DNA of 64,000 nucleotides, from the NCBI RefSeq assembly GCF_000419585.1, contig NZ_ATTH01000001.1, positions 2,519,001-2,583,000 of the forward strand. The letters run 5' to 3'. A program made the position numbers and the translations under genes. Below, in pieces: positions 49,684 to 64,000 of this stretch (positions within the stretch are counted from its first letter, which is position 1; every line of letters starts with the position of its first letter). The notes beneath the pieces were generated by a model, which saw nothing but the letters and a program-made list of their open reading frames with translations, had not been told where the DNA came from and did not search any database. The stretch is from Salisaeta longa DSM 21114 (GTDB taxonomy: Bacteria; Bacteroidota; Rhodothermia; Rhodothermales; Salinibacteraceae).

Positions 49684-50139
49684 GGGATACAGGCGAGCGA
49701 GAAGGGAAGGGGTGCGATGCTACAACCATGCAGTATGCAACACATGCGCCAGAAAGTAAACCCCGCGCGGCCGTCCTGTACGCGGAATCATTGCAAATGC
49801 GCATGAACGCACCGTACACCATAGGGAACGGGTCATCCCTGGAAGAGAGGCCTTTAGGTCATGCCTGTGGTGCGCGGTAACCTCCGTAACGGGCCGCTCT
49901 TGCTCGTACATGGAGATTGCCACGTCACTCACTCCGTTCGTTCCTCGCAATGACACATAGGTTTTTGCTTTTTTGATCCGCTGGGCGTGCAGTTGGTCAA
50001 ATCAATCTGAATAGTCATCTGAACTATCAACGTATCGTTTTTGGCTCCGTTCATGCAAGGCCCACGGCCATTGGACAAAGTACCGGGCGCTTCCTATCCT
50101 TACGGTTGTCCGCTGCCCGCTCGCTTGCCCTGTGCTCCC
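49684..50139. other. Intergenic region with a REP-like repeat
   Basis: 456 bases between the divergent amidase and GH13 genes. It contains a REP-like repeat copy at 49912-49955 and an inverted relative at about 49824-49875. The rest shows no gene. Confidence 0.6.
49912..49955 (+). repeat. REP-like palindromic repeat, copy A
   Basis: GGAGATTGCCACG, then a purine/pyrimidine-alternating middle, then TTCCTCGCAATGACA. The same boundary words recur at 57878 and 58111, and inverted at 58041. The stretch upstream (49850-49870) holds AGGTCATGCCTGTGG, the exact complement of a word inside copy B, so the locus is a mosaic. Confidence 0.75.
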
Positions 50140-51522
50140 ATGCTTCGCTCCCTCGTTGCTGCGCTCCTCACCGCCGGACTCCTGGTCGCCGGCTGCCAGA
50201 AGGCCCCGCCCGCCACGCAACCCGAAGCGGCGCCCGCGGCCGATGCGTCCATTGAAGGTGTCGGCGAACCGGCGTGGGTATCGGATGCGGCGGTCTACGA
50301 GCTGTTCATCCCCGACTTTACCGAAGCGGGCACATTTCGCGCGGCCATCGGCCGGCTGGACGCGCTGGACCGGCTGGGCATCAACACGATCTGGCTGATG
50401 CCGATTCACCCGATTGGCGAGGAGCGCCGCAAGGGGGCGCTGGGCTCGCCTTACGCCATCCGCGACTACTACGCCGTGAATCCGAACTACGGCACGAAAG
50501 AGGATTTTCGCGCTTTTGTGGACGCGGCCCACGCGCGGGGCATCAAGGTGATCATCGACTTTGTGGCCAATCACACGGCCTGGGATCATCCGTGGACCGA
50601 GGCGCACCCCGCGTGGTACACCGGCGGCGCGCCCATGGTGCCGGTGAGTCCGAGCGGCGACACGACCAACTGGACCGACGTGGCCGATCTCAACTACGAC
50701 AACCCGGCGCTGCGCCAGGAGATGATTGACGTGATGCAGTACTGGGTGCGCGCGTTCAACATCGACGGCTACCGCTGCGACGTGGCCGGGTGGGTGCCCG
50801 ACAGCTTCTGGACGGCGGCCATCGACTCGGTCGAGACGATCAAGCCTGTGCTGATGCTGGCCGAGCATGCCGATCCGGCCATCCACCAAAACGGCTTCGA
50901 CTGGACCTACGCCTGGCCGTTTTACGGCGCGCTGAAAAAGGTGTGGGCCGATACCGCCTCGGTGCGCACACTCGCTGCGCAGGTGGATACCACCTTGCAG
51001 GCGCTTCCGCCCGGGGCCGAGCGGCTGCGCTTTACCACCAATCACGACGAGACGGCCTGGGATGCCCCGCCGCCCGCGCTCTTCGACGGGATAGCAGGCG
51101 CTCAAGCGGCGACCATGCTCGCCTTCACCATGTCCGGCATCCCGCTCATCTACAACGGGCAGGAGCTGGGCGTGCGCGAGCCGGTGCCGTTTTTCGAGGC
51201 GACGCCGTACGACTGGTCGCAAGAGAGCGCGATGCGCCCGTTCTTCCGGACGTTCTTCAGCCTCTACAGCGACAGCGAGGCCCTGCGCGAGGGGGCGCTC
51301 GACGTGCTCGATGCCTCCACCGACGACGTGCTGCTGTACACGCGCACGGCCACCGAGGATACGCTTCTTATTGCCGTGAACGTGCGCGACCGCGCGGCCA
51401 CCGTGCCCGTGCCGGCCACCTTCCGCTCCCGCGTGCTCACCGATGCCATCGAGGGCGTGCGCATGGAGGCCGCGGCGATCGAGCTGCCGCCCTACGGCTT
51501 TATGTTGCTGGAGGTGGAGTGA
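50140..51522 (+). CDS. Glycoside hydrolase family 13 (alpha-amylase) lipoprotein
   Basis: 460 residues from ATG 50140, which opens a lipoprotein signal (MLRSLVAALLTAGLLVAGC, Cys19). The TIM barrel is complete: INTIWLMPIHPIG, VIIDFVANHTAWDHPW, nucleophile Asp214 in DGYRCDVAG, acid/base Glu242 in MLAEHAD and Asp303 in TTNHDET. A C-terminal beta domain completes it. It cleaves or transfers alpha-1,4-glucosidic bonds, outside the cytoplasm and membrane anchored. Confidence 0.92.
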   Translation: MLRSLVAALLTAGLLVAGCQKAPPATQPEAAPAADASIEGVGEPAWVSDAAVYELFIPDFTEAGTFRAAIGRLDALDRLGINTIWLMPIHPIGEERRKGALGSPYAIRDYYAVNPNYGTKEDFRAFVDAAHARGIKVIIDFVANHTAWDHPWTEAHPAWYTGGAPMVPVSPSGDTTNWTDVADLNYDNPALRQEMIDVMQYWVRAFNIDGYRCDVAGWVPDSFWTAAIDSVETIKPVLMLAEHADPAIHQNGFDWTYAWPFYGALKKVWADTASVRTLAAQVDTTLQALPPGAERLRFTTNHDETAWDAPPPALFDGIAGAQAATMLAFTMSGIPLIYNGQELGVREPVPFFEATPYDWSQESAMRPFFRTFFSLYSDSEALREGALDVLDASTDDVLLYTRTATEDTLLIAVNVRDRAATVPVPATFRSRVLTDAIEGVRMEAAAIELPPYGFMLLEVE

Positions 51523-51585
51523 GGCGCGGCCGCCGGGTAGGGAAGCGAGCCGCGGGCGCAGCCGCGCAGGGTCGTGAACGGCGCG

Positions 51586-53022
51586 TTACGCGGCGGTCTC
51601 TTCTGCTTCTTCTTCCGCGGCCTGCGCGGCCTCGTACAGGTCGGCGATGACGGTGGCCAGGAGCTCGGGGCGCTCTTGCGCGAGCTGATCCACAAGCGGC
51701 AGAAACTGACGCACGGTCTCGTCATCGGCGGTGCTGTCGCGCCGGCGGTCTTCCAGCAGCGCCGTGGCCGTATCGGCCGGATCTTCGGGCAGCTCGGCCT
51801 TCTCCAGCTCAATGTCGTACGCCTTGGCCATGCGCTCCAGCTCAAATTCGTCCTCGTGCGTGGCCAGGATGATGGCGGTGCCTTCCTTCCCGGCGCGCGC
51901 GGTGCGGCCGGAGCGGTGGATGATGTACTCGTGATCCTGCGGCACGTCGTAGATGAACACGTGGCTCAGGTCCGACACGTCGATGCCGCGGGCCGCCACG
52001 TCGGTGGCTACCATCATGCGCGTTTCGCCACTGCGCAGCCGGTCGATGGCCTTCTCGCGGTCGCGCTGCGACAGGTCGCCCGACATCTCGTCGACGGCGA
52101 TGCCCTGGTTGGAAAGAAATTGCTGCAGGTAGCTGACTTCCTTCTTGGTGTTGGCGAAGATGATGGCCGACTCCGGCTCCTCCAGCGCAATCAGCCGCTC
52201 CAGCGTCCGGTCTTTATCCATCGGGTTTACGAGGTAGTACCGGTAGTCCATCGCCGAGACGCTCACCTGCTCGGTGCTCAGCGACAGAAAGCCGGGGTCG
52301 CGCAGGAACGCGCGCGCCGCGTTGCGCACCTTGGGCGGCATCGTGGCGCTCACCATGTGCGAGGCCCGCTTGTCGTACGTCAGGTAGCCCTCAATCTCCT
52401 CAATATCGGGCAGGAAGCCCATCGACAGCATCTCGTCGGCCTCGTCCAGAATGAACTGGTGGACGGTATCCGCCTTGAAGTTTTTCTTCTTGAGATGGTC
52501 GAGCGTGCGCCCCGGCGTGCCCACCACCAGCTGCGCGCCGCCCTTCAGTGCCTCAATCTGCGGGCCGTAGCCGACGCCGCCGTACAGAAGCGCCACCTCC
52601 AGCTGATTCGTTTCGGGCGTGCCCAGCTTCATCCGCTCAAACTCTTCCTTGATCTGGCGGGCCAGCTCGCGCGTGGGCGTCAAAATGAGCGCCTGTGCCT
52701 CCTCCTTCTCCGGGTCGATCCGGTCGAACAGCGGGAGCAAAAACGCCCCCGTTTTGCCCGATCCGGTTTGGGCTTGCACAATCAGGTCGCGGTCGGCCAG
52801 CATGTACGGGATGGCCTTCTTTTGCACCTCCATCATGTCGGCCCAGCCGGCGGCGTACACGGCCTGCTCTACGCGGTGCGGCAAGCTTTCGAGCGTCGCT
52901 TCGTCGAGCGGCGGATCGGGGGCTTCGAGCGTTCCCACCTCGTCGCGGCGGGCTTTGCGTTGCGACTTTGAGGTCAGGTCGATGACCTGGGTGTAGGGGT
53001 TGGGCGAGGCGTTAGCAGCCAT
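51586..53022 (-). CDS. DEAD-box RNA helicase
   Basis: 478 residues. An upstream aromatic and Q motif region (MEVQKKAIPYMLADRDLIVQAQTGSGKTGAF), PTRELARQI, VVGTPGRTLDHL, DEADEMLSMGF, VSATMPP, and motif VI HRSGRTARAGKEG. The C-terminal tail is acidic and Ala/Glu-rich (EEEAEETAA). It unwinds RNA duplexes in ribosome assembly or mRNA decay (CsdA/RhlE-like). The specific subfamily is uncertain. Confidence 0.93.
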   Translation of the reverse strand: MAANASPNPYTQVIDLTSKSQRKARRDEVGTLEAPDPPLDEATLESLPHRVEQAVYAAGWADMMEVQKKAIPYMLADRDLIVQAQTGSGKTGAFLLPLFDRIDPEKEEAQALILTPTRELARQIKEEFERMKLGTPETNQLEVALLYGGVGYGPQIEALKGGAQLVVGTPGRTLDHLKKKNFKADTVHQFILDEADEMLSMGFLPDIEEIEGYLTYDKRASHMVSATMPPKVRNAARAFLRDPGFLSLSTEQVSVSAMDYRYYLVNPMDKDRTLERLIALEEPESAIIFANTKKEVSYLQQFLSNQGIAVDEMSGDLSQRDREKAIDRLRSGETRMMVATDVAARGIDVSDLSHVFIYDVPQDHEYIIHRSGRTARAGKEGTAIILATHEDEFELERMAKAYDIELEKAELPEDPADTATALLEDRRRDSTADDETVRQFLPLVDQLAQERPELLATVIADLYEAAQAAEEEAEETAA

Positions 53023-53141
53023 GAGAGTGAACGCGGGTCAAAGGGCGCAAAAATAGCGAAGGAAACGCGTAACAGTCCGTACGACGACAGCGGCGGCACG
53101 ATCCTGCGGAACGATGCCTTCACAAAGGGCGCATGGGATCA

Positions 53142-53729
53142 TCAGCGCACCCGAATCCGCTGGCCGGGCCGAATGCTGCCCGAGTCGAGGTTGTTCAGTT
53201 GCTTCAGTTCGCGCACCGAGGCGCTGTACTGCCGCGCGATGCTCCACAGCGTATCGCCGGTTTGCACGGTGTAGTACGCCGACGACTGCGCGGCGGGGTC
53301 GGCGGCGGTGGCGGCCCGCACCATCTCGGCCGAGCGGCCTTGTATGGTGACGGCGTTGGTGATGCGCTCGATGCCGTCTACGGTGCGTGCGGCTTGCAGG
53401 GCCTTGCGGTGGAGCGCGCGCGTCGGGACGTCGCCCCGCAGCGTAAGGTGCCCGCCCGATACGGAGGCTTCAAAGTTGTACGGCCGCAGCGCCTCGTACC
53501 GCAACAGGGCCTTGCGCACCTTGGTGGCCCGTATCGCGTTGCGAACGTGCGCGGCCACCGTTCCGGTTGGCGTAACGGCCAGCGGCTCATCGGCCGGGGC
53601 CCGCGCAGCAGCGGCCGGCGTGGATGCCACGGGACGATTGGGCGAAGGCGCGTCCTGCTGCGGGCTGTTCTGACACCCCCACAGGACGCTACCCAGCGCG
53701 ATGACGATAATAAAAGGCTTGATGGGCAT
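53142..53729 (-). CDS. BON-LysM domain lipoprotein
   Basis: 195 residues from ATG 53729 (lipoprotein signal MPIKPFIIVIALGSVLWGC, Cys19). A BON domain at about residues 60-135 (VRNAIRATKVRKALLRYEAL, GGHLTLRGDVPTRALHRKALQAARTVDGIERITNAV) followed by a LysM at the C-terminus (YTVQTGDTLWSIARQYSASVRELKQLNNLDSGSIRPGQRIRV). The same two-domain order occurs in E. coli Kbp/YgaU, a cytoplasmic potassium sensor; here the lipobox points to the envelope. It lies 65 bases downstream of trxB. Confidence 0.87.
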   Translation of the reverse strand: MPIKPFIIVIALGSVLWGCQNSPQQDAPSPNRPVASTPAAAARAPADEPLAVTPTGTVAAHVRNAIRATKVRKALLRYEALRPYNFEASVSGGHLTLRGDVPTRALHRKALQAARTVDGIERITNAVTIQGRSAEMVRAATAADPAAQSSAYYTVQTGDTLWSIARQYSASVRELKQLNNLDSGSIRPGQRIRVR

Positions 53730-53794
53730 GATCGACACGTAATGCGTGCTTCCTGGCAAACCGGTGGACATACGCGATGTCCTCGGTGCAGGAT

Positions 53795-54862
53795 TCATGC
53801 CGTTTGCGCTTCAATGCTCGGTTCTGCTTCAGCGGCGTGGTACTCGGTCTCGGTGCGCGGCGCTTCGATGGCGCCGTGCTCGGCCAGCCACCGCTCGGCA
53901 TCAATCGCGGCCATGCAGCCGGTGCCCGCCGCGGTTACGGCCTGGCGGTACACATGATCTTGCGCGTCGCCACAGGCAAAAACGCCCGGCACGTCCGTGT
54001 ATGTCGAATCGGGCTTGGTGAGGATGTAGCCGTTGTCGTCCATCGCCAGCCAGCCCTCAAACGGCTCGGTGTTGGGCGTGTGGCCAATGGCCAAAAACAG
54101 CCCCGTCACGTCGTCCATCACGCGGGTTTCGCCCGTCTTGTTGTTGATGACCTCCAGGCCCGTCACCTGGTCCTCGCCTAGCACGTCGGTCACCTCAGTG
54201 TCCCACACAAACTCGATCTTGTCGTTTTCAAACGCGCGCTCCTGCATAATTTTGGAGGCCCGCAGCTCGTCGCGGCGGTGAATGACATACACCTTCGCGG
54301 CAAACTTGGTAAGGAAGGTCGCCTCCTCCATCGCGCTGTCGCCGCCGCCCACCACGGCCACGGTCTCATCCCGGAAGAACGCGCCGTCGCAGGTCGCGCA
54401 GGCCGTTACCCCTTTTCCGATGAGGCGTTGCTCATTTTCCAACCCCAGGTATTTGGCGGAAGCGCCCGTGGCCACAATGACCGTTTGGGCGTAGAGCGGC
54501 GTCTCCTCGTCGACGAGCAGCCGGTACGGGCGCTCCGAGAAGTCGACATCGGTGACGGTGCCGTAGCGCGTTTCGGTGCCAAAGCGCTCGGCCTGTTCCT
54601 GAAACTTGTTCATCATCTCCGGCCCCATGATGCCTTCCGGGAAGCCGGGAAAGTTTTCCACGTCGGTGGTAGTGGTGAGCTGTCCGCCGGGCTCGGGGCC
54701 CATGTACACCAGCGGGTTCAGGTCGGCGCGCGCGGTATACAGCGCGGCGGTCCAACCGGCCGGACCGGTGCCAATAATAACCACCGGGCGCACCTCGGCG
54801 CCGGAAAAGTCGATGCCGTCAAACGCCGATCGATCGGGCATGGTACCGTTGGTAGAAGCCAT
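53795..54862 (-). CDS. trxB: Thioredoxin-disulfide reductase
   Basis: 355 residues. FAD-binding GTGPAGWTAALYTARA, redox-active Cys155-Ala-Thr-Cys158 in GVTACATCDGAFF, NADPH-binding VVGGGDSAMEEA and GVFACGDAQDHVYRQAVTAAGTGCMAA. It reduces thioredoxin with NADPH. trxA is 92 bases upstream on the same strand, so the pair is likely cotranscribed. The C-terminal tail is slightly longer than usual. Confidence 0.96.
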   Translation of the reverse strand: MASTNGTMPDRSAFDGIDFSGAEVRPVVIIGTGPAGWTAALYTARADLNPLVYMGPEPGGQLTTTTDVENFPGFPEGIMGPEMMNKFQEQAERFGTETRYGTVTDVDFSERPYRLLVDEETPLYAQTVIVATGASAKYLGLENEQRLIGKGVTACATCDGAFFRDETVAVVGGGDSAMEEATFLTKFAAKVYVIHRRDELRASKIMQERAFENDKIEFVWDTEVTDVLGEDQVTGLEVINNKTGETRVMDDVTGLFLAIGHTPNTEPFEGWLAMDDNGYILTKPDSTYTDVPGVFACGDAQDHVYRQAVTAAGTGCMAAIDAERWLAEHGAIEAPRTETEYHAAEAEPSIEAQTA

Positions 54863-54954
54863 AGAAGGATTCAGGAAAAGAATCGAGAAAACAACGCACG
54901 CTGCGCGCAGCCCCCAATAGGCCTACGCGCAGCGAATGAAAGGGTAACAATCCG

Positions 54955-55296
54955 TTACGCGGGCTGTCCAATCAGCTGATCCAGCTTCTTGGCGAGCTGT
55001 CCCTTCGGCGCGGCGCCCATCATCTGGTCGGCCACGTCGCCCCCCTTAAAGAACAGGAGCGTGGGGATGGAGCGCACGCCGTACTCTTGCGCCATGCGCG
55101 GGTTGTCGTCCACGTCCAGCTTGCCGATCTTCACGCGGCCCGCGTAGTCGTCGGCCAGTTCGTCAATCACCGGTGCAATCATGCGGCACGGACCGCACCA
55201 CGTGGCCCAAAAGTCCACCAGCACGGGCACGTCGGCATTCAGTACCTCGTCTTCAAAGTTGTCGTCGGTCAGGGTTACTACGTTCTCGCTTGCCAT
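54955..55296 (-). CDS. trxA: Thioredoxin
   Basis: 113 residues from ATG 55296 (MASENVVTLTDDNF); the open frame continues upstream without conserved residues. Active-site WCGPC at residues 33-37 in VDFWATWCGPCRM, cis-Pro in VRSIPTLLFFKGG. Standard length. Upstream of trxB on the same strand. Confidence 0.96.
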   Translation of the reverse strand: MASENVVTLTDDNFEDEVLNADVPVLVDFWATWCGPCRMIAPVIDELADDYAGRVKIGKLDVDDNPRMAQEYGVRSIPTLLFFKGGDVADQMMGAAPKGQLAKKLDQLIGQPA

Positions 55297-55464
55297 AAGG
55301 GCGTTGCTGTACGTGAAGAATCCAATGTAGCTATGTGTGCGTGCACGAAGCGATGCGTTACAAACGACCGCTTTTGCGCTACGCTTTATCGCATGAATGC
55401 TATAAAGCAAGTTCCGTTCCGCGGTGCAGGTTGGGGGCCGGGCCTGCCATCGTGGCAGGAGGCC

Positions 55465-57738
55465 CTACCGCATGCGGGAGGGGAGCGTCCCTTCGTAGGC
55501 GGTGCGGAGCGTATCCACGGGCGCATCGATGAGGACGGGCCCCTCGGCCGCAGCGATGCGCAAGCGCCCGTCGGTGGTTACGGTGCCCAGCCGGTGCGCG
55601 CGCACGGTCGCAGGGAGGGTGTCGGACAGCGCGTCGGCGGCGTCGGCCGGTACGCTGCAAACAATCCGCGACTGATCTTCGCCAAAGAGGACCGCATCGA
55701 GGCGCGCGCCGGGGGCGGCGGGCAATGCAAGATCCAGCCCCAAGCCCTCGGCCGGCAGCACCGACTCGGCCAGCGCCACCGCGAGGCCGCCGTCCGAGAC
55801 GTCGTGGGCGTGTTGCACCACGCCGTTGCGGATGAGCGTGCGCAGGGCCTGCTGCACCGCGGCCTCCTCGTCGAGGTCGAGGTGCGGCGCGTCGCCCGCG
55901 GTTTGGCCGTGGGAAAACGCCAGGTACTCCGAGCCGCCAATGCTGCGGGCGTGCGTCCACGCCGCCGGGGTGAGGAGCACCACCACATCGCCCGGGGCCT
56001 GCACGGCGGCCGTGGTGGGGTGCGCCGCGATGTCGTCGACGATGCCCAGCATGCCAATCGAGGGCGTGGGAAAGATCGCGCCCTCCGGGTGCTCGTTGTA
56101 CAACGACACGTTGCCGCCGGTAACGGGCGTATCCAGCGCCCGGCAGGCGTCGCCAATGCCGCCCACCGCCTCCGCAAACGTCCAGTACACCTCCGGCTTG
56201 TACGGATTGCCAAAGTTGAGGCAGTTGGTGATGGCGACCGGCCGCCCGCCCGCGCACGTCACGTTACGCGCGGCCTCGGCCACCGCAATTTGCGCCCCGC
56301 GGCGCGGGTTCAGGTACACGTAGCGGCCGTTGCAGTCGCTCTTTACGGCGAGCCCCTTGCGGGTGCCCTTGATGCGCAGTACCGCAGCATCGCTGGGCCC
56401 CGGCCCCACCACGGTGTTGGTGCGCACGGTGGTATCGTACTGCTCAAACACCCAGCGCTTGCTGGCGATGTTGGGCGCAGCGAGCAGCTCCACCAGCGCC
56501 TCGCCGGCCGTCGCGGGCGTCAGGTCCTCTATCGAGGCATCGTCAAAGGCATGCACGGTGTCGAGGTACGAAGGCCGCTTGGTCTCGCGGGTGTACACCG
56601 GCGCCCCGCTGCCGGCGTCCAGGTGCGTGGCCTCCAGGTCGGCCACGGTCTCGCCATGCCATAGCACCTCCACCCGTCCCGTATCCGTGACGGTGCCAAT
56701 CTCGACGGCGTTCAAATCCCACTTCTCAAAGATGGCTTGCAGGTCGTCTTCGCGGCCGGGCGCAGCCACAATCAGCATGCGCTCCTGACTCTCCGAGAGC
56801 ATAATCTCGTAGGGTGTCATCTCCGTTTCGCGGGTGGGCACGCGATCGAGTTGCAGCCGCATGCCGGTGCCGCCGGACGCGCTCATCTCGAACGACGAGC
56901 TGGTAATGCCCGCCGCCCCCATGTCTTGCACGGCCAGCGTAACCCCGGCCCGAATGGCCTCCAGGGTGGCCTCCAGCAACAGCTTCTCGGTAAACGGATC
57001 GCCCACCTGCACGCTGGGGCGGCGGTCTTCACTCGCGTCCGAGATTTCTTCCGACGCAAACGTGGCGCCGTGGATGCCGTCGCGCCCGGTGGCCGATCCC
57101 ACGATGTACACCGCGGCTCCCGGTTCGCGGGCCACCGCGCTCGCAATTTCGTCGGCCTTTACCACGCCCACGCTCATTGCGTTCACCAGCGGATTGCCTT
57201 CGTAGGCTTCGTCAAAGTAGACGTCGCCGGCCACGGTGGGCACGCCAAACGAGTTGCCGTAGTCGCCGATGCCGCCCACCACCCCATCAAACAGGTAGCG
57301 CACCCGCGCATCGTCGAGCGGACCAAACCGCAGCGAGTTGAGCGCGCACATGGGCCGCGCGCCCATCGTAAAGATGTCGCGATGGATGCCGCCCACCCCG
57401 GTGGCCGCGCCCTGGTACGGCTCCACGGCCGACGGGTGGTTGTGGCTTTCCATCTTAAACGCTACCCCGAGCCCGTCGCCAATATCCACGAGGCCCGCGT
57501 TTTCCTCGCCGGCGGCCACAAGAAGTTGTGGGCCGTCGCTGGGCAGGGTCTTTAGCAGGTTCAGCGAGTTTTTATACGAGCAGTGCTCGCTCCACATCAC
57601 CGAGTAGATGCCCAGCTCCACAAACGTAGGCGTGCGGCCCAGGGCATCAACAATCCACCCATATTCTTCGGCCGTTAGGCCGTGCTCTTGGGCCAGGGCG
57701 GCGGTTACTTCCGGGTCGTTGGGCAGCGCAGTGGGCAT
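55465..57738 (-). CDS. purL: Phosphoribosylformylglycinamidine synthase subunit II
   Basis: 757 residues, the size of small PurL that works with PurS and Pur[15 protein letters not shown] at the N-terminus, [39 protein letters not shown] and the second-half GNVSLYNE and [13 protein letters not shown] are conserved. It makes FGAM in purine synthesis. purS and purQ are not in the window. Confidence 0.96.
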
Positions 57739-57877
57739 AGCAGGCGTCGTTGGCTGAAAAGGGGCGCACCGGTAAGGTATAAAACGCAGCGGACCGGGTC
57801 AGGTGCGCGGCGCAACACTTCGCGAATCACGTGGGAATTTTCGTGACACGCCCCGCGACTGATTTTTGCTCGTTTGC

Positions 57878-57938
57878 GGAGATTGCCACGTACCACAGGC
57901 ATGACCTACGGCCCTCGCCTTCGCTCCTCGCAATGACA
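57878..57938 (+). repeat. REP-like palindromic repeat, copy B
   Basis: Begins GGAGATTGCCACG and ends CGCTCCTCGCAATGAC. The middle contains CCACAGGCATGACCTACGGCC, the inverted complement of a word near copy A. Confidence 0.75.
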
Positions 57939-57962
57939 TTGAGGACGGAGTGCCAAAACGAT

Positions 57963-57978
57963 GCGTTGGTGGTTCAGA
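57963..57978 (+). repeat. Direct repeat, first copy
   Basis: GCGTTGGTGGTTCAGA, identical to 58223-58238, each located after a REP-like element and followed by a similar GGC...CCAAC-GCACGC stretch. Confidence 0.8.
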
Positions 57979-58040
57979 CGGCCATTCGGCTCGGTTCGCC
58001 CAACTGCACGCGCAACGTACAGAAAAGCAATACCCTTCTT

Positions 58041-58085
58041 GTCATCGCGAGGAGTGAGCGCAAAGCGAGCTACGTGGCGATCTCC
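58041..58085 (-). repeat. REP-like palindromic repeat, copy C (inverted)
   Basis: Reading the minus strand gives GGAGATCGCCACGTAGC and ends CTCCTCGCGATGAC, i.e. the copy B form with two substitutions. Confidence 0.75.
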
Positions 58086-58110
58086 CTGTACGCGCAAAAA
58101 CGATCGGTTG

Positions 58111-58197
58111 GGGAGATTGCCCTTCCATGATGACCTTCGGCTTCCGCTCCAGGATGATCCAAAGGCCTCCAGGCTCACTGCGTTCGCTCGCAATGAC
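58111..58197 (+). repeat. REP-like palindromic repeat, copy D
   Basis: Begins GGGAGATTGCC and ends GTTCGCTCGCAATGAC; its middle carries ATGATGACCTTCGGCTTCC. It is longer than copies A-C. Confidence 0.7.
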
Positions 58198-58222
58198 AAC
58201 AGAGAGAACGTGAGGAAACGGA

Positions 58223-58238
58223 GCGTTGGTGGTTCAGA
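58223..58238 (+). repeat. Direct repeat, second copy
   Basis: GCGTTGGTGGTTCAGA, identical to 57963-57978. Confidence 0.8.
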
Positions 58239-58349
58239 GGGCTGTTCCGGCGGGTTTGGCCAACCGCACGCCATGCGCTCGGAACAAAGTAGCGAATGGA
58301 TGCATCCAATACGATCCGCTAATCACGACAGCGGTGTTCTTTTACATAT

Positions 58350-58715
58350 GGGGATGACACGGCTTCGACGGGTGGTAAACGTGCAGTGGACTGTCCTGCC
58401 GAGCTTCCTGATACGCTCGTAAATCAGGTCAGGAACGTGTAACTGCGGACGATTACTCGTACGCGATGGCGGCGTAAACCCGCCATCTGTCTCTTTCTCG
58501 GCTCGGCTATTGGCCGGTTAGAGACATCGATTAGATAGCCTTGCGCTTGTCCGTTCCGGCTGCACGGACGAGCGTTAAAATCAATCAGCCTTGGCGACGG
58601 CTTGGCCCGGTGGACGGGCTCTAGGCCGAAGCGACACTCAAATGCTGTCCACTATGCAGGTAGAGGTTCAACGTGTACGGCCACTCGGACCCGGGTTCGA
58701 CTCCCGGCATCTCCA
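58350..58715 (+). ncRNA. ssrA: tmRNA (SsrA)
   Basis: 366 bases. The 5' end GGGGATGACACGGCTTCGACGG and 3' end GGGTTCGACTCCCGGCATCTCCA are the paired tRNA-like ends; GGGGATG pairs with CATCTCC (one G-U). The internal tag frame 58445-58477 reads GCG GAC GAT TAC TCG TAC GCG ATG GCG GCG TAA, giving ADDYSYAMAA. It rescues stalled ribosomes and tags nascent chains for proteolysis with SmpB (not in the window). CCA is not encoded. Confidence 0.96.
58445..58477 (+). other. tmRNA tag reading frame (ADDYSYAMAA)
   Basis: Ten codons and TAA inside the tmRNA. The degradation tag ends in ...AMAA rather than the ...LAA of E. coli. Confidence 0.93.
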
Positions 58716-58744
58716 CTAGTAGTTAGTAGCTTGTAGTACGTTGC

Positions 58745-58779
58745 AGCCCCTCGGCTTTTTTGGTCGAGGGGCTTTTTTA
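58745..58779 (+). terminator. Intrinsic terminator downstream of tmRNA
   Basis: AGCCCCTCG (58745-58753) pairs with CGAGGGGCT (58765-58773), followed by six or more T residues. Confidence 0.93.
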
Positions 58780-58793
58780 TTGCGCGTGTGTCG

Positions 58794-61700
58794 TTACGCA
58801 CTGAGGTCGATGGGCTGCAGCGTCTCGGTATCGGTAAACCAGAGCCCGGCCGAGGCGACGCGCGCGTCGGGCTGGGCGTTCCAGTAGCGGGCGTACTGCC
58901 GCACCTGCTGCACGTACGGGTGATCGTCGGGCACGTACGGCAGCGTGGCGTCGTTGGGTAGGCGATCGGTTTTGTAGTCGACGATGTGCCAGCCGTCGGC
59001 GTCCCGGTACAGCAGGTCGATGACGCCGCGCATCACCACGGGCGTCCCCTCGGCGTCGGGCGTGCACGTCACAAACGGATATTCGGCGTAGGCTACGTCG
59101 GCGTCTCGGATCTGCGCGGCCAGCGGGGTCTGGCGGAAGCGCTCCAGGGTGGTGTGTGCGCGCCGGGCGAGGGCCGCGGCATCGAGCGACGGGTCGGGCG
59201 CTTCCAGGCGTGCATTGACGGCCGCCAGGCGCTCCTGAAGCACCGCAACCGCCGGGGGCCGCGGGTCGTCGGCACGGGCCTGCACCCACCGCTCCAGGGC
59301 GTCGTGGATGACCGTCCCGTAGGCCGCGCCGTACCCGCTCGTCCACCGCAGGGGCGTGGCGTTGTGCTTCCCGCCGCTCACGGTGGCCGTTGCAAAGGTG
59401 GGCCGCGTGAGAGCGTCCGGACGGTCGCCACCTCCATCCGCGGGGGGCGGCGCATGCACGTGGGGCATGGGGGGCGGATCGGCGGGGGCCGCTTCGCCAT
59501 CGGCCGGTGCCCCAGTGCGCAGGCGCGGGGCGTCAATGGCTTCGGTGTACGCATGCAGCGGCTGCCACGTCGACGCGCAGGGATCGCCGTCCTTTTTGGG
59601 ACCGTAGGCAATCACCAGCAGATTTTCGGCGCGTGTGGCGGCCACGTAGCGCAGGCGATGCTCCTCGGCGGCCTGGTGCGCGTCCTCCAGCGGCGCAAAC
59701 ACATCGTTCCATCCGCGGGGCGCGTGGGTGGCCGTTGCGCGGTAGGAGCCCTGCTGCATGAGCGGGGCCACGAGGCGTGCGGGGCCGTCGGCGGGGCGGT
59801 ACACGTGCTGGGTGGCCTGGCCGTGCGACCGGCCCTTGGGCCCTGCCAAGAACACCACGGGCGCCTCCAGCCCCTTCGCCTGATGCACGTTCATGATGCG
59901 CACGGCTTGCGGGGAGCCGCTGTGGAGCGTGCGGCTGTCTTCTGGCTCCTCGCCGTGCACGATGTCGTGCAGGACGTTGACGAGGTCCGACCAGTGCGCG
60001 CCCTCGCCGGCGTGGCGTTGCAGGAGGTCGAGCGCGGTGAGAAGGCGTCCGGCCTGCAGTGCGCGCCCCGAGGGGTCGGACGGCGTGGCTACGGCCGGGA
60101 GCAGCCCCAGCCGCTCCACCACGTCGTGCAGCGCCAGTGCGGGCCGCTTCGATTGCAGGAGCGTGCGCACATCGGCCAGCCGCTCCGCGGCGCCCGCGAG
60201 ACGCCGGGCGGTGTCGGACGGCAGCGCGTCGCGCACGGCCGCCTGGCGCGCCCCGGACAGCGCATCGAACGCCGCACCGTCGGCCGCATCGCAGGCCACG
60301 CGGTAGGCGTAGAGGTCGTCGTCGCTGCAGCCCACGAGGCCGCTGCGCAGGTACGCGAGTTGCGCCACGGCATCGTCGGGGCGCACAGCCGCCCGCAGCG
60401 CCGCCAGCAGATCCTGCACCGCCGGGCCATCGCCCAGGTCCTCGCTGCCGGTAATGGCAAACGGGATGTTGTGCGCGGCCAGCGCTTTGGCGTACATCGA
60501 CAACCGCTTCTTTTTACGGGTGAGCACCATGAAGTCGCCGTAGGCCGCTCCGCCCGGAAACACCACATCGGCGGCGTCTTGGGGCCCCGCCATCGGATGG
60601 GCCGTGCCGCGATCGACGGCCGCGCGAATGAACCGGGCAATCTGCTGGGCCTCATCCGCAAAAAAAGCATCCGTGTTGCGGCCGTACGCGCCGGTTTTCA
60701 GCACGCGAACGCACGCATCCGTTCGGCCCGCGGGGCGGTGCGCAGCAAACGGCTCGTAGCTGGCCTGCACGGTTTCCTCGTCCGTCCCCTCGTCCTGATG
60801 CTCCGCAAACAGCTCCGTGAAGGCGTCGTCGCAAAATTGAAGGATCTCGGGGCGCGAGCGAAAATTGAGCCGGAGCGATGTGACGCGCCCGCCGGTTGCC
60901 TCCATCCGCTCGGTGACGGCCTCAAAAATGGTGATGTCGGCGCGCCGGAAGCGGTAGATAGATTGCTTGTCGTCGCCTACGATGAACAGGCTGCCGGGCC
61001 GGGGCGTGCAGGTGCGCCAGTCGGTGGCGGTGGGGTCGGTGCTGGTCAGCAGGAACAAAATCTCGGCCTGGAGCGGGTCGGTGTCCTGAAATTCGTCGAC
61101 CAGCAGGCGCGGGAAGCGCTGGTGCACGGCCGTCCGGATGTCGGGGTGATCGCGGAGCAGCTCGCGGGTCCAGTACAGCACGTCGTGGTGGGTCAGCAGC
61201 CCCTCGGCCCGGCGGCGCGCGGTGTACCGCTCGGCGGCGGGGGTTACAAACGCTACGGCTTGGCGGTGGGCATACGCCGTCCATTCCGTTAGGGGCGGCT
61301 GCACGGCTGCATAAAGGGCCGGATAGGCGTTGTCGCGCAGGTGCCGAGCAGATTCGTACGCCTCACTCCCCGATGCGCCCCAGCGGTTTAACTTCACGCG
61401 TCCCTTTTTCTCTTTGGTTCCTTTGCACAAGGCCTGAAGAAAGCGGGCCTGGTGGGCGGGGGTGTCGAGCGGCAGATGGCGCATCATGTCTTCGGCCCGA
61501 TCCAGCGCTTGTTGGGCGCGGTCGCGGTCGCCCAGCGGCGGGTCCGGGCGTAGCGCTTGCCACCGCTCCACGAACGCCCGCGCGGTGTCCACCGCCTCGT
61601 CAAGCGCGGGCGGCGCGTCGGGCGCGTTGGTGTACGGCGTCAGCTCGGGGTGCGCGCTGAACGTGGCATACAAGCTCTCCAGCCGCTCCATCGGCAGCCC

Positions 61701-62264
61701 CAGCGTGTCCTCCAGCTCAACGCGCAGCGGGTCGCCGGCGCGCTCCTGCACGTAGGCCTGCCACGTGGCGGTGCGCAGCGGCGCAAGGTCGTCTTCCTCG
61801 GCGCCCACCATAAAATCAAGGGGAAGCGCCGCCTCAAACGCGTAGGTGCGCAAGATGCGTCCATAAAACGCGTGCAGCGTGCCAATGAAGCATTGCTCTG
61901 CCTCGGCCTGGGCCTGCCGGATCCGGTGCAGCTCCTCGGTGGGCGCGTCCGATGTGTGTGCGCGTTGCGTGAGGGCTTCGGCCGTGCGGCGCAGCTCGGC
62001 ATGAAAGCGTTCCTTCATCTCGCCGGCGGCTTTGCGCGTGAACGTGATGGCTGCCAGGTCGCGCGGACGGGCCGCGCCGGTGCGCAGCAGCGCCACCATG
62101 CGGGCCACCAGCGTCGTCGTTTTGCCCGATCCCGCCGCGGCGCGCACAACAAAGTTCGTGTCGGCCTCGAAGGAGTCCAGCGACGGGAGGGGCTCGTCGG
62201 GTTGCCACGGCCCGATGCAGGCGCGGGCGGCGTGGTCGGCGGAGGCGTTGGGGGCGGTAGACAT
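58794..62264 (-). CDS. AddA/RecB-like UvrD-family helicase-nuclease
   Basis: 1,156 residues. Superfamily 1A helicase: VRAAAGSGKTTTLVARMVALL (Lys48), LLVDEFQDTDPLQAEIL, LFIVGDDKQSIYRFRRADI, and IMNVHQAKGLEAPVVFLAGPKG. The C-terminal nuclease has GVIDLLYRDADGWHIVDYKTDRLP (the PD-(D/E)xK acidic and lysine residues). It processes double-strand breaks together with the AddB-like protein encoded 42 bases upstream. The tmRNA lies convergently downstream. Confidence 0.92.
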   Translation of the reverse strand: MSTAPNASADHAARACIGPWQPDEPLPSLDSFEADTNFVVRAAAGSGKTTTLVARMVALLRTGAARPRDLAAITFTRKAAGEMKERFHAELRRTAEALTQRAHTSDAPTEELHRIRQAQAEAEQCFIGTLHAFYGRILRTYAFEAALPLDFMVGAEEDDLAPLRTATWQAYVQERAGDPLRVELEDTLGLPMERLESLYATFSAHPELTPYTNAPDAPPALDEAVDTARAFVERWQALRPDPPLGDRDRAQQALDRAEDMMRHLPLDTPAHQARFLQALCKGTKEKKGRVKLNRWGASGSEAYESARHLRDNAYPALYAAVQPPLTEWTAYAHRQAVAFVTPAAERYTARRRAEGLLTHHDVLYWTRELLRDHPDIRTAVHQRFPRLLVDEFQDTDPLQAEILFLLTSTDPTATDWRTCTPRPGSLFIVGDDKQSIYRFRRADITIFEAVTERMEATGGRVTSLRLNFRSRPEILQFCDDAFTELFAEHQDEGTDEETVQASYEPFAAHRPAGRTDACVRVLKTGAYGRNTDAFFADEAQQIARFIRAAVDRGTAHPMAGPQDAADVVFPGGAAYGDFMVLTRKKKRLSMYAKALAAHNIPFAITGSEDLGDGPAVQDLLAALRAAVRPDDAVAQLAYLRSGLVGCSDDDLYAYRVACDAADGAAFDALSGARQAAVRDALPSDTARRLAGAAERLADVRTLLQSKRPALALHDVVERLGLLPAVATPSDPSGRALQAGRLLTALDLLQRHAGEGAHWSDLVNVLHDIVHGEEPEDSRTLHSGSPQAVRIMNVHQAKGLEAPVVFLAGPKGRSHGQATQHVYRPADGPARLVAPLMQQGSYRATATHAPRGWNDVFAPLEDAHQAAEEHRLRYVAATRAENLLVIAYGPKKDGDPCASTWQPLHAYTEAIDAPRLRTGAPADGEAAPADPPPMPHVHAPPPADGGGDRPDALTRPTFATATVSGGKHNATPLRWTSGYGAAYGTVIHDALERWVQARADDPRPPAVAVLQERLAAVNARLEAPDPSLDAAALARRAHTTLERFRQTPLAAQIRDADVAYAEYPFVTCTPDAEGTPVVMRGVIDLLYRDADGWHIVDYKTDRLPNDATLPYVPDDHPYVQQVRQYARYWNAQPDARVASAGLWFTDTETLQPIDLSA

Positions 62265-62306
62265 AGCGCGGTGGAGGGATGCGATGGATGCGGCGACGGA
62301 TCGGTG

Positions 62307-64000
62307 CTACTGAAGAAAATGCGGGACCGGACGCGCTTCTTCGGGAAATGCTTTGGCGGCCAGCGCGCGCTTCCGTGCGTCTAGGTCGGGCACGAGAGCG
62401 TCGTACGCGCCAAACGCCCAACTGCTTGCCGCGTCCAGGTCGGGGCGCATGGGAAACGTACCGGTGCGCAGGAGGCGCATGAGGTGGCGGAGGGTGCCGT
62501 GCAGGGCGGTCTCGGCGCGTTCGTCGAGCGGCCACGACAGGCGGTTGCCCATCTCTTTCACGGAGAAAAACGCGTAGCCTGATTCTGCAACTGGACGGTC
62601 GAAGTGTTGGTGTGCAACGGCTCCGTAGAGCGCCCACTGCAGCGTCTCGCCGTGCTTCAGGGGCCACTCGGTGTCGAAGCTGTAGCGGCTGCCCGTCTTG
62701 TAGTCCCACAGGTGGAGCCGGCCGTCGGCGGCCGTGTCGATGCGGTCGATGCGGCCACGCAGCGGCACCGCCGCACCGTCGGGGAGCCTCAGGCGGAAGG
62801 GCCCCGCGTCGCCCCGCCGCTTGCGGGCGCCCCGGTAGCCAAAGCCCCACTCTACGTGTAGCGGCTCGAAGGCGTCGGCGCGCTGCCGCTCGCTTTCCAC
62901 AAACAGCCGGGCCGGAAGCATCAGTCGTTTGCGGATGCTATCGCGCGACGTGCCCGCCCCGATGTGGTCGCGGGCCGCCCAATCGTCGATGCACGCGTCG
63001 ATGTGGTCCATCAGCCGCTCGTGGGCCGCGTCGGTAGCCAGCGCCTCGGGGTCTTCGCGCATGAACTGCTCGAAGGCCCGGTGCAAGATGGCGCCCTTGC
63101 GCAGTGCATCGAGCCACGGCTCGTCGTGCAGCGCAGGCTCGTTGAGCGGTCGCACGCGCAGCACGTACTTCACGAAGTAGGCGTAGGGCGAGGCGGCGAG
63201 CGTCTGCAGGCGGTTGGCAGAGAGGGGCGCGCCGCGGTACGACGGGTCGAGCGGATCGAGCGCCGGGTAGTCGGCGGCAGACAGCAGGCCGTCGTAGGCG
63301 GTGTAGCGGTCGGCGGCCCGCGCAGCCCGCGCCTGTTCGCCATCGCGTATCCACGGGTGCTGGGCGTGCAGCGCAGCCCGCGCCGTAGACCACGCCGTGG
63401 AGGGGGGCGGATCGCCGGCCGCGGGCGGGGCCGATGCCGGGTGGGTAGCTACGAGCCACGCCTCATCAGCCGACAGGGCCGGAAGCTGCGCCGGCGGCAC
63501 GAATCCTTCGCGCGCGGCAGTGCCGGGCGGTACCTGGTGGGCGGCGAGGTGGTCGCGGTACAGCGTCGAGGCAAACCGCTCCTCGCCGGTGGCCGGATCA
63601 AAGTGCATCGCCACGAGCGTCTGCGCCCCGGTGTGCCGGTCGAGGGCCGCGCGAAAGCGCCAGGCGGCGGCATCGGCGGCGCGGCGCGGGTGCGCCACGG
63701 TGGCGGCTTGCTCCTCCGAGAGCGTCGCCCGCACCGGCCCGCGCAACACCGGGTCGTCGAGCGAGGCCACAGCGGTCGTCTCGTTGTCGAGGCCCACCAC
63801 GTACAGATCGGTGCGCCCCATGAAGCCGGCGCTGTCGAGCGGTACGATATGCAGCGCCCCGGGCTGCGGCCGCCGCGCGCCCACGTACCGCGACGTAAGT
63901 TCGTTGCGCAGCACCGGCAGCACGGCGCCCAGCGACTGGGGCGGGTCGACCGCAAGGGTGCGCCACTCCGGAAAGATCGTGGCGTGCAGCACGCGATGCG
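62307..64000 (-). CDS. AddB-like PD-(D/E)xK exonuclease subunit (5' end outside the window)
   Basis: At least 561 residues visible from an internal Met codon at 63990-63992; the frame stays open to the window edge (HRV before it), so the N-terminus is missing. The C-terminal nuclease has GRIDRIDTAADGRLHLWDYKTGS and LQWALYGAVAHQHF. The cysteines that bind an Fe-S cluster in Bacillus AddB are not visible (the matching ASPYAYFVKYVL has no Cys). It is the upstream partner of the AddA-like helicase, in one operon. No AddB helicase-fold remnant can be judged from the visible part. Confidence 0.8.
   Translation of the reverse strand, partial: HRVLHATIFPEWRTLAVDPPQSLGAVLPVLRNELTSRYVGARRPQPGALHIVPLDSAGFMGRTDLYVVGLDNETTAVASLDDPVLRGPVRATLSEEQAATVAHPRRAADAAAWRFRAALDRHTGAQTLVAMHFDPATGEERFASTLYRDHLAAHQVPPGTAAREGFVPPAQLPALSADEAWLVATHPASAPPAAGDPPPSTAWSTARAALHAQHPWIRDGEQARAARAADRYTAYDGLLSAADYPALDPLDPSYRGAPLSANRLQTLAASPYAYFVKYVLRVRPLNEPALHDEPWLDALRKGAILHRAFEQFMREDPEALATDAAHERLMDHIDACIDDWAARDHIGAGTSRDSIRKRLMLPARLFVESERQRADAFEPLHVEWGFGYRGARKRRGDAGPFRLRLPDGAAVPLRGRIDRIDTAADGRLHLWDYKTGSRYSFDTEWPLKHGETLQWALYGAVAHQHFDRPVAESGYAFFSVKEMGNRLSWPLDERAETALHGTLRHLMRLLRTGTFPMRPDLDAASSWAFGAYDALVPDLDARKRALAAKAFPEEARPVPHFLQ

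Follow-up and report, generated by a model that had tools for sequence, protein, structure and literature searches.

What is the palindrome-rich DNA that stands directly upstream of ssrA in Salisaeta longa DSM 21114, and what spread it? In the window, i.e., the whole 64,000-nt stretch of this genome that was analysed (contig NZ_ATTH01000001.1, positions 2,519,001 to 2,583,000), the repeats sit between the tmRNA at 58350-58716 and the start of a minus-strand frame at 55465-57738, which we take to be purL-like and which is so named through its relatives (the best one, 74% identical, from the MAG Bacteroidetes bacterium GSL.Bin3). The last 78 bp before the tmRNA are free of repeat, and a TTCTTTTACATAT stretch stands directly before the gene; by eye, similar stretches precede the tmRNA in some relatives. 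A sequence-only reading of the region had described REP-containing units repeated in tandem, a third copy lying inverted between them, and the layout of the window palindromes bears this out (Table 1): positions 57878-58271 comprise a complete copy of a dispersed unit and a second, truncated one, the unit being ordered as palindrome, 101-nt spacer (A), inverted palindrome and 26-nt spacer (B). The two blocks that it had paired, 57878-58011 and 58111-58272, are homologous by self-alignment (56 nt ungapped, 79% identity, at a spacing of 260), with 44 of 56 positions matching, where none of 100 single-base shuffles exceeded 30; the 16-base word that it had pointed out occurs exactly twice in the window, the third listed match carrying three mismatches; and the third copy is indeed inverted relative to the palindromes on either side of it. 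Structurally, the window palindromes carry a TGTC tag and a CTCC tail; their stem opens with two complementary AT positions and runs for 5 bp in its outer part, inside which the palindrome is interrupted.

Table 1 Repeat features in the window (positions counted from its first nucleotide)
Feature	Position	Strand	Remark
Palindrome copy 1 (GTC-AT)	57878..57938	-	Head at 57938; GGTCAT motif nested in loop
Spacer A, 101 nt, joins palindrome heads	57939..58039	+	16-base word at 57963-57978
Inverted palindrome (third copy of the earlier reading)	58040..58085	+	
Spacer B, 26 nt, joins palindrome tails	58086..58111	no strand	
Palindrome, second unit	58112..58198	-	Two GGTCAT/GATCAT motifs nested in loop
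Spacer A, second copy, truncated	58199..58271	+	Similarity fades past ~58271; no inverted palindrome follows
Further palindrome of the same family	49912..49955	-	
Probable spacer A copy, opposite orientation	49956..50056	-	Word with 3 mismatches at 50018-50033; end placed by eye

Does the position beside ssrA matter? The same reading had seen here structured non-coding DNA beside a small RNA gene, and the repeats do occupy the space directly upstream of ssrA, but a structured region linked to that gene found no support: the unit recurs at dozens of places elsewhere in the genome, five pieces of the region fold no better than their shuffles (z −0.30 to 0.80), 36 copies of spacer A have no consensus fold (alifold −0.2 against a shuffled-column mean of −0.3), Rfam at E ≤ 0.1 over 50000-64000 returned the tmRNA only, and palindromes lay within 400 bp of only one of 18 ssrA loci of relatives (L302, by the head scan defined below; 0/18 by the detector). 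We regard it as very improbable that the repeats are a structured RNA or a regulator of ssrA; the copy at ssrA is one of many, and no action on ssrA is expected of it. A search for an orthologous empty site at 13 purL loci (one of them, L060, without upstream DNA) found a tmRNA by ARAGORN at a single locus, 3.5 kb off, and the neighbours of ssrA differ among relatives.

Genome-wide, the unit is dispersed. BLAST of 57868-58290 against the 3.40-Mb genome of S. longa gave 146 pieces (E ≤ 10), with dozens of places represented among the longer of them, and a strict palindrome pattern gave 88 matches and none when reversed. In 36 stretches around such matches plus the window (37 in all) we counted 121 palindromes, 62 on the minus and 59 on the plus strand. 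Arrays are common, and neighbours no more than 400 bp apart form 36 head-to-head, 36 tail-to-tail and 8 head-to-tail pairs, with head-to-head gaps of 100-102 nt in 36 of 36 and tail-to-tail gaps of 25-26 nt in 27 of 36 (88-281 nt in the remaining nine). Mean identity of spacer A is 67% across 36 copies, and no relation between the spacer A of this genome and its nuclease gene (below) was seen. Among 41 genomes, the full-length 208-nt unit occurs only in S. longa itself, and the matches in six others cover essentially the palindrome part. As side observations, the loop of 50 of the 121 palindromes holds a nested GGTCAT/GATCAT, resembling a minisatellite growing within a hairpin, and some of the 26-nt B spacers form a small hairpin whose two arms change in step (GGGC/GCCC, AGGC/GCCT; by eye, 8 copies).

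Which enzyme, then, could have moved such palindromes? The familiar answer would be a RAYT (Y1 transposase) acting on ordinary REP elements, and the genome does contain a Y1_Tnp match over the cut-off, but the strict palindrome is absent within 1.5 kb of all four Y1_Tnp loci and the palindromes lack the GTAG tag of such REPs; we therefore set this reading aside as extremely improbable. A different gene lies inside an array ~157 kb before the window (C1:2361959-2362243). Its product of 96 aa is a nuclease with a GIY-YIG domain across most of its length (PF01541 over cut-off), it matched no NCBIfam family, and it is the one match in this genome to the profile of the nuclease group at E ≤ 1e-15. 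PADLOC gave one weak match, UzuA (E 0.0044), which we took as a shared domain. A first survey found palindromes of the window's family flanking four stand-alone nucleases, and an nhmmer model of that single palindrome family turned up few flanked nucleases.

Nuclease loci were compared in three sets, in which several genomes are MAGs and titles may be wrong for single contigs. The order set comprises the 134 PF01541 matches (E ≤ 1e-6) in 41 genomes, i.e., 36 stand-alone, 23 YhbQ-like and 75 other loci, 31 of these last being examined as a UvrC-size control. An alignment of the four first-found nucleases, A1, matches 181 of 394 genomes of the phylum, from which the phylum set takes the 26 best new A1 loci, the four A1 loci being left out. 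The other-phyla set draws on 50 genomes, with titles mostly from other phyla, that gave 33 A1 matches at E ≤ 1e-10; 30 were examined and split into 11 loci of at least 74 bits and 19 below 66 bits. Flanks were searched by a head scan (three fixed heads, at most one mismatch) and by a second scan with a general detector. By either scan, palindromes lay within 400 bp of 24 of the 36 stand-alone genes of the order (20/32 without the four idea-giving loci), of 23 of 26 in the phylum set and of 11 of 11 at or above 74 bits in the other-phyla set (8 by each scan), figures that are partly fitted, since the detector was written after flanks without head hits had been read in all three sets; the head scan, whose design preceded any look at the phylum and other-phyla sets, alone gave 18/26 and 8/11. 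In the order set 12 of 36 loci, and in the phylum set 3 of 26, had no palindrome by either scan. With scrambled heads or tails the detector returned 0 or 1 per set, and reversed heads gave none nearby in the four sets tried.

Are the two merely in each other's company, both accumulating in tolerant intergenic DNA, with recombination between repeats carrying genes along? Palindromes do cluster away from the nuclease genes too, at 600-1400 bp (4/36, 6/26 and 2/11 in the three sets), and the loci are dependent through shared descent. Against such passive company, there is little within 400 bp of other genes (A1 matches below 66 bits 2/19, YhbQ-like 2/23, UvrC-size 1/31, ssrA 1/18), where the 600-1400-bp counts are 0/19, 2/23, 1/31 and 0/18, respectively. 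Fisher's test of the 24/36 stand-alone loci of the order versus the 3/54 YhbQ-like and UvrC-size loci gives p = 5e-10, a value that is too small because the loci are related by descent. At the level of whole genomes, an A1 nuclease is present in 37 of the 41 genomes of the phylum with at least five strict palindromes versus 144 of the 353 others (Fisher 5e-10, from counts by eye); a nuclease-profile match is absent in four of the 41. The low counts at other genes, together with the agreement between nuclease clades and palindrome types within single genomes described below, make passive company rather unlikely in our judgement. Palindromes crowd around the nuclease group, but the nearest ones keep no set orientation: of the 23 loci with palindromes on both sides, 14 have inverted and 9 same-facing palindromes (head scan, by eye).

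Beyond the phylum, tblastn of the S. longa nuclease found 33 plasmid records, all below 60% identity, 14 of which were chosen to spread across genera and examined after the detector had been designed, with its minimum loop set at 4 instead of 6. Of the 14, ten had detector palindromes within 400 bp and two had them at 600-1400 bp. The ten are Planktothrix agardhii, Spirosoma oryzicola, Neorhizobium, Shinella, Sinorhizobium meliloti pSymB, Neisseria gonorrhoeae, Rhizobium CIAT894, Azospirillum lipoferum 4B, Photobacterium and Aeromonas caviae; other CGTC-/CCTC-tagged palindromes stand on both sides in Novosphingobium aromaticivorans, Sphingobium and Sinorhizobium K101 (by eye), and Rhizobium tumorigenes has no palindrome beside the nuclease by detector or eye. 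Two of the records listed as plasmids, NZ_CP119140.1 (L349) and NZ_AP026896.1 (L354), are chromosome-sized at 2.2 and 4.9 Mb, and in P. agardhii plasmid p1 (L343) the nuclease and its palindromes stand between an MmeI-type restriction gene and DISARM drmA.

Across these hosts the palindromes share a common plan, GTC-AT-stem...stem'-AT-C[CT], with differing sequences, and come in two types. Near nucleases, 141 distinct palindromes are interrupted (S-type), of which 131 have GA directly after three variable stem bases and 113 have GA flanking the inner part on both sides, directly or one base off; 33 distinct ones are perfect hairpins (C-type), 22 of them ending in CCA. The GA pairs of the S-type could form tandem G-A mismatches in a folded strand. 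A further palindrome, GTCGTCCC...GGGAC.., flanks nucleases of one clade (L229, L234 and L236) and was missed by the detector (by eye).

Evolutionarily, nuclease clade and palindrome type go together. On a tree of 78 nucleases, 63 of them labelled (17 C, 46 S) and 15 uncounted, palindrome type changes 3 times versus a shuffled mean of 15.1, with none of 500 shuffles as low, a result to be read with the labelling rule having been set after an earlier tree had revealed the pattern, and with near-copies favouring the clustering of labels. A split with support of 99/85 divides the tree into halves of 29 rows with 16 C and 2 S and of 49 rows with 44 S and 1 C, on few columns and with the bootstrap unsettled. 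Within two single genomes (G036 and G016), nucleases of both halves stand beside their two types, as they do in a third (G033) with one exception (L182), which speaks against passive company.

Comparisons between related species show presence and absence of the element at the same site. In A. lipoferum 4B the nuclease lies between sufB and sufC, with two palindromes on each side, and in A. ramasamyi, A. oryzae and Azospirillum sp. B510 the two suf genes are present with neither nuclease nor palindromes; the ends of the insertion are not base-exact, as the outermost palindromes lie ~20-50 nt from alignable DNA. On pSymB of S. meliloti Ak57 (L348), a full nuclease gene adjoins a second unit that has only the 3' part of the gene, and Sinorhizobium K101 and C101 have palindromic sequence at that site without the nuclease (loose alignment). 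The truncated copy in L348, standing between palindromes, resembles a miniature derivative. One would expect such sites from an autonomous element together with a deletion derivative and solo palindromes. No target duplication was readable at the insertion sites compared.

These sites also bear on whether the palindromes are landing sites, that is, whether a homing-type GIY-YIG gene prefers palindromes spread by something else. REPs are reportedly targeted by some insertion sequences (Tobes and Pareja 2006), and homing endonucleases with GIY-YIG domains are known, according to the part of PMC1564403 drawn on here. Against this, many of the genes have complete palindromes on both sides rather than the halves of one, clade and type agree, and the site in the Azospirillum relatives has no palindrome; we consider landing sites unlikely. 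Alternatively, the palindromes could serve the host, as terminators or in RNA stability or protein binding, with the nuclease processing them as a host factor; such roles are known for REPs of other types (PMC3733652, in the part used here), and the palindromes are widespread. Yet they are patchy, the strict pattern having at least one match in 153 of the 394 genomes of the phylum and none in most, and they show insertion polymorphism, so that we hold this reading to be improbable.

Because palindromes of the same plan crowd around its genes, we suggest that the GIY-YIG enzyme spreads them, and we favour, with somewhat better than even confidence, the interpretation that the region upstream of ssrA is a REPIN-like non-autonomous element, belonging to a class of palindromes mobilised by small stand-alone GIY-YIG nucleases. 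Mechanistically, the nuclease would recognise the folded palindrome, as a hairpin or cruciform, and would cut at or near the GTC|AT base, after which host repair may copy the unit. DNA hydrolysis by GIY-YIG enzymes proceeds without a covalent intermediate, and homing-like, repair-driven spread is therefore likelier than strand transfer. More broadly, we posit that there is probably a phylum-spanning class in which tiny GIY-YIG nucleases move GTC-AT palindromes of lineage-specific architecture, with the CGTC-REPs (dRS3, RPE-4 and RPE-6) included and the window arrays as REPIN-like derivatives with a fixed 101-nt spacer. The association of nuclease and palindromes was observed directly, and cutting and mobilisation are what we infer from it. 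If true, the missing enzyme of the CGTC-REPs is a nuclease that works by hydrolysis rather than a transposase. Palindromes of such a plan occur in many bacterial phyla; with a candidate enzyme recurring beside palindromes of matching architecture, their spread could be examined in vitro. Such an enzyme would also decide, for one group, a point that the consulted part of PMC1564403, which makes no mention of 'palindrom', leaves unsettled: whether additional GIY-YIG proteins behave as molecular parasites. Among the open-licence papers (no preprints) that our searches listed, none connects GIY-YIG nucleases to repeats of this kind; the consulted part of PMC3733652 makes no mention of 'GIY', and in that of PMC9465073 RayT and a GIY-YIG gene share one pangenome table, unlinked.

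How does this compare with known systems? The closest are the CGTC-tagged REPs of Di Nocera and colleagues (2013, PMC3733652), which, in the part of that paper drawn on here, include dRS3, RPE-4 and RPE-6, have A. lipoferum, S. meliloti and Neisseriae among their hosts, and share with our palindromes the GTC tag (CGTC, often TGTC), AT at the stem base, a short unpaired tail and head-to-head dimers. The window palindromes have the terminal tag in its TGTC form and the complementary AT at stem positions one and two; they differ in their 5-bp outer stem, where CGTC-REPs have a perfect stem of 8-9 bp with a 4-5-nt loop, and in a CTCC tail in place of the mostly CCA one. The perfect stem is found in the C-type palindromes elsewhere, and those beside nucleases in Alphaproteobacteria and Neisseria look identical in kind to CGTC-REPs. 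Among CGTC-REPs, as described in that part of the paper, head-to-head dimers predominate and clusters are rare; S. longa has 36 head-to-head, 36 tail-to-tail and 8 head-to-tail pairs, and its arrays are common. The paper reports no association with transposase genes and no dedicated transposase, whereas here a nuclease gene was found beside such repeats. UPF0213 GIY-YIG proteins of known structure (1zg2, 1ywl) and YhbQ-like proteins have the same small domain, but YhbQ-like genes in the order are singly conserved and, for the most part, have no palindromes. With GIY-YIG homing endonucleases the element shares the PF01541 domain and the repair-driven spread expected of it, and differs in a protein of ~96 aa filled by the domain, in being intron-free, in the multicopy palindromes flanking it and, judged from protein length and domain extent, in lacking the extra C-terminal NUMOD-type region. 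Finally, with REP/RAYT systems, BIMEs and REPINs it has in common two inverted palindromes across a spacer in many copies, tandem mosaic arrays, and many non-autonomous copies alongside few enzyme genes, while the GTAG tag is absent and, with no Y1 transposase alongside, a nuclease of unrelated fold stands in its place.
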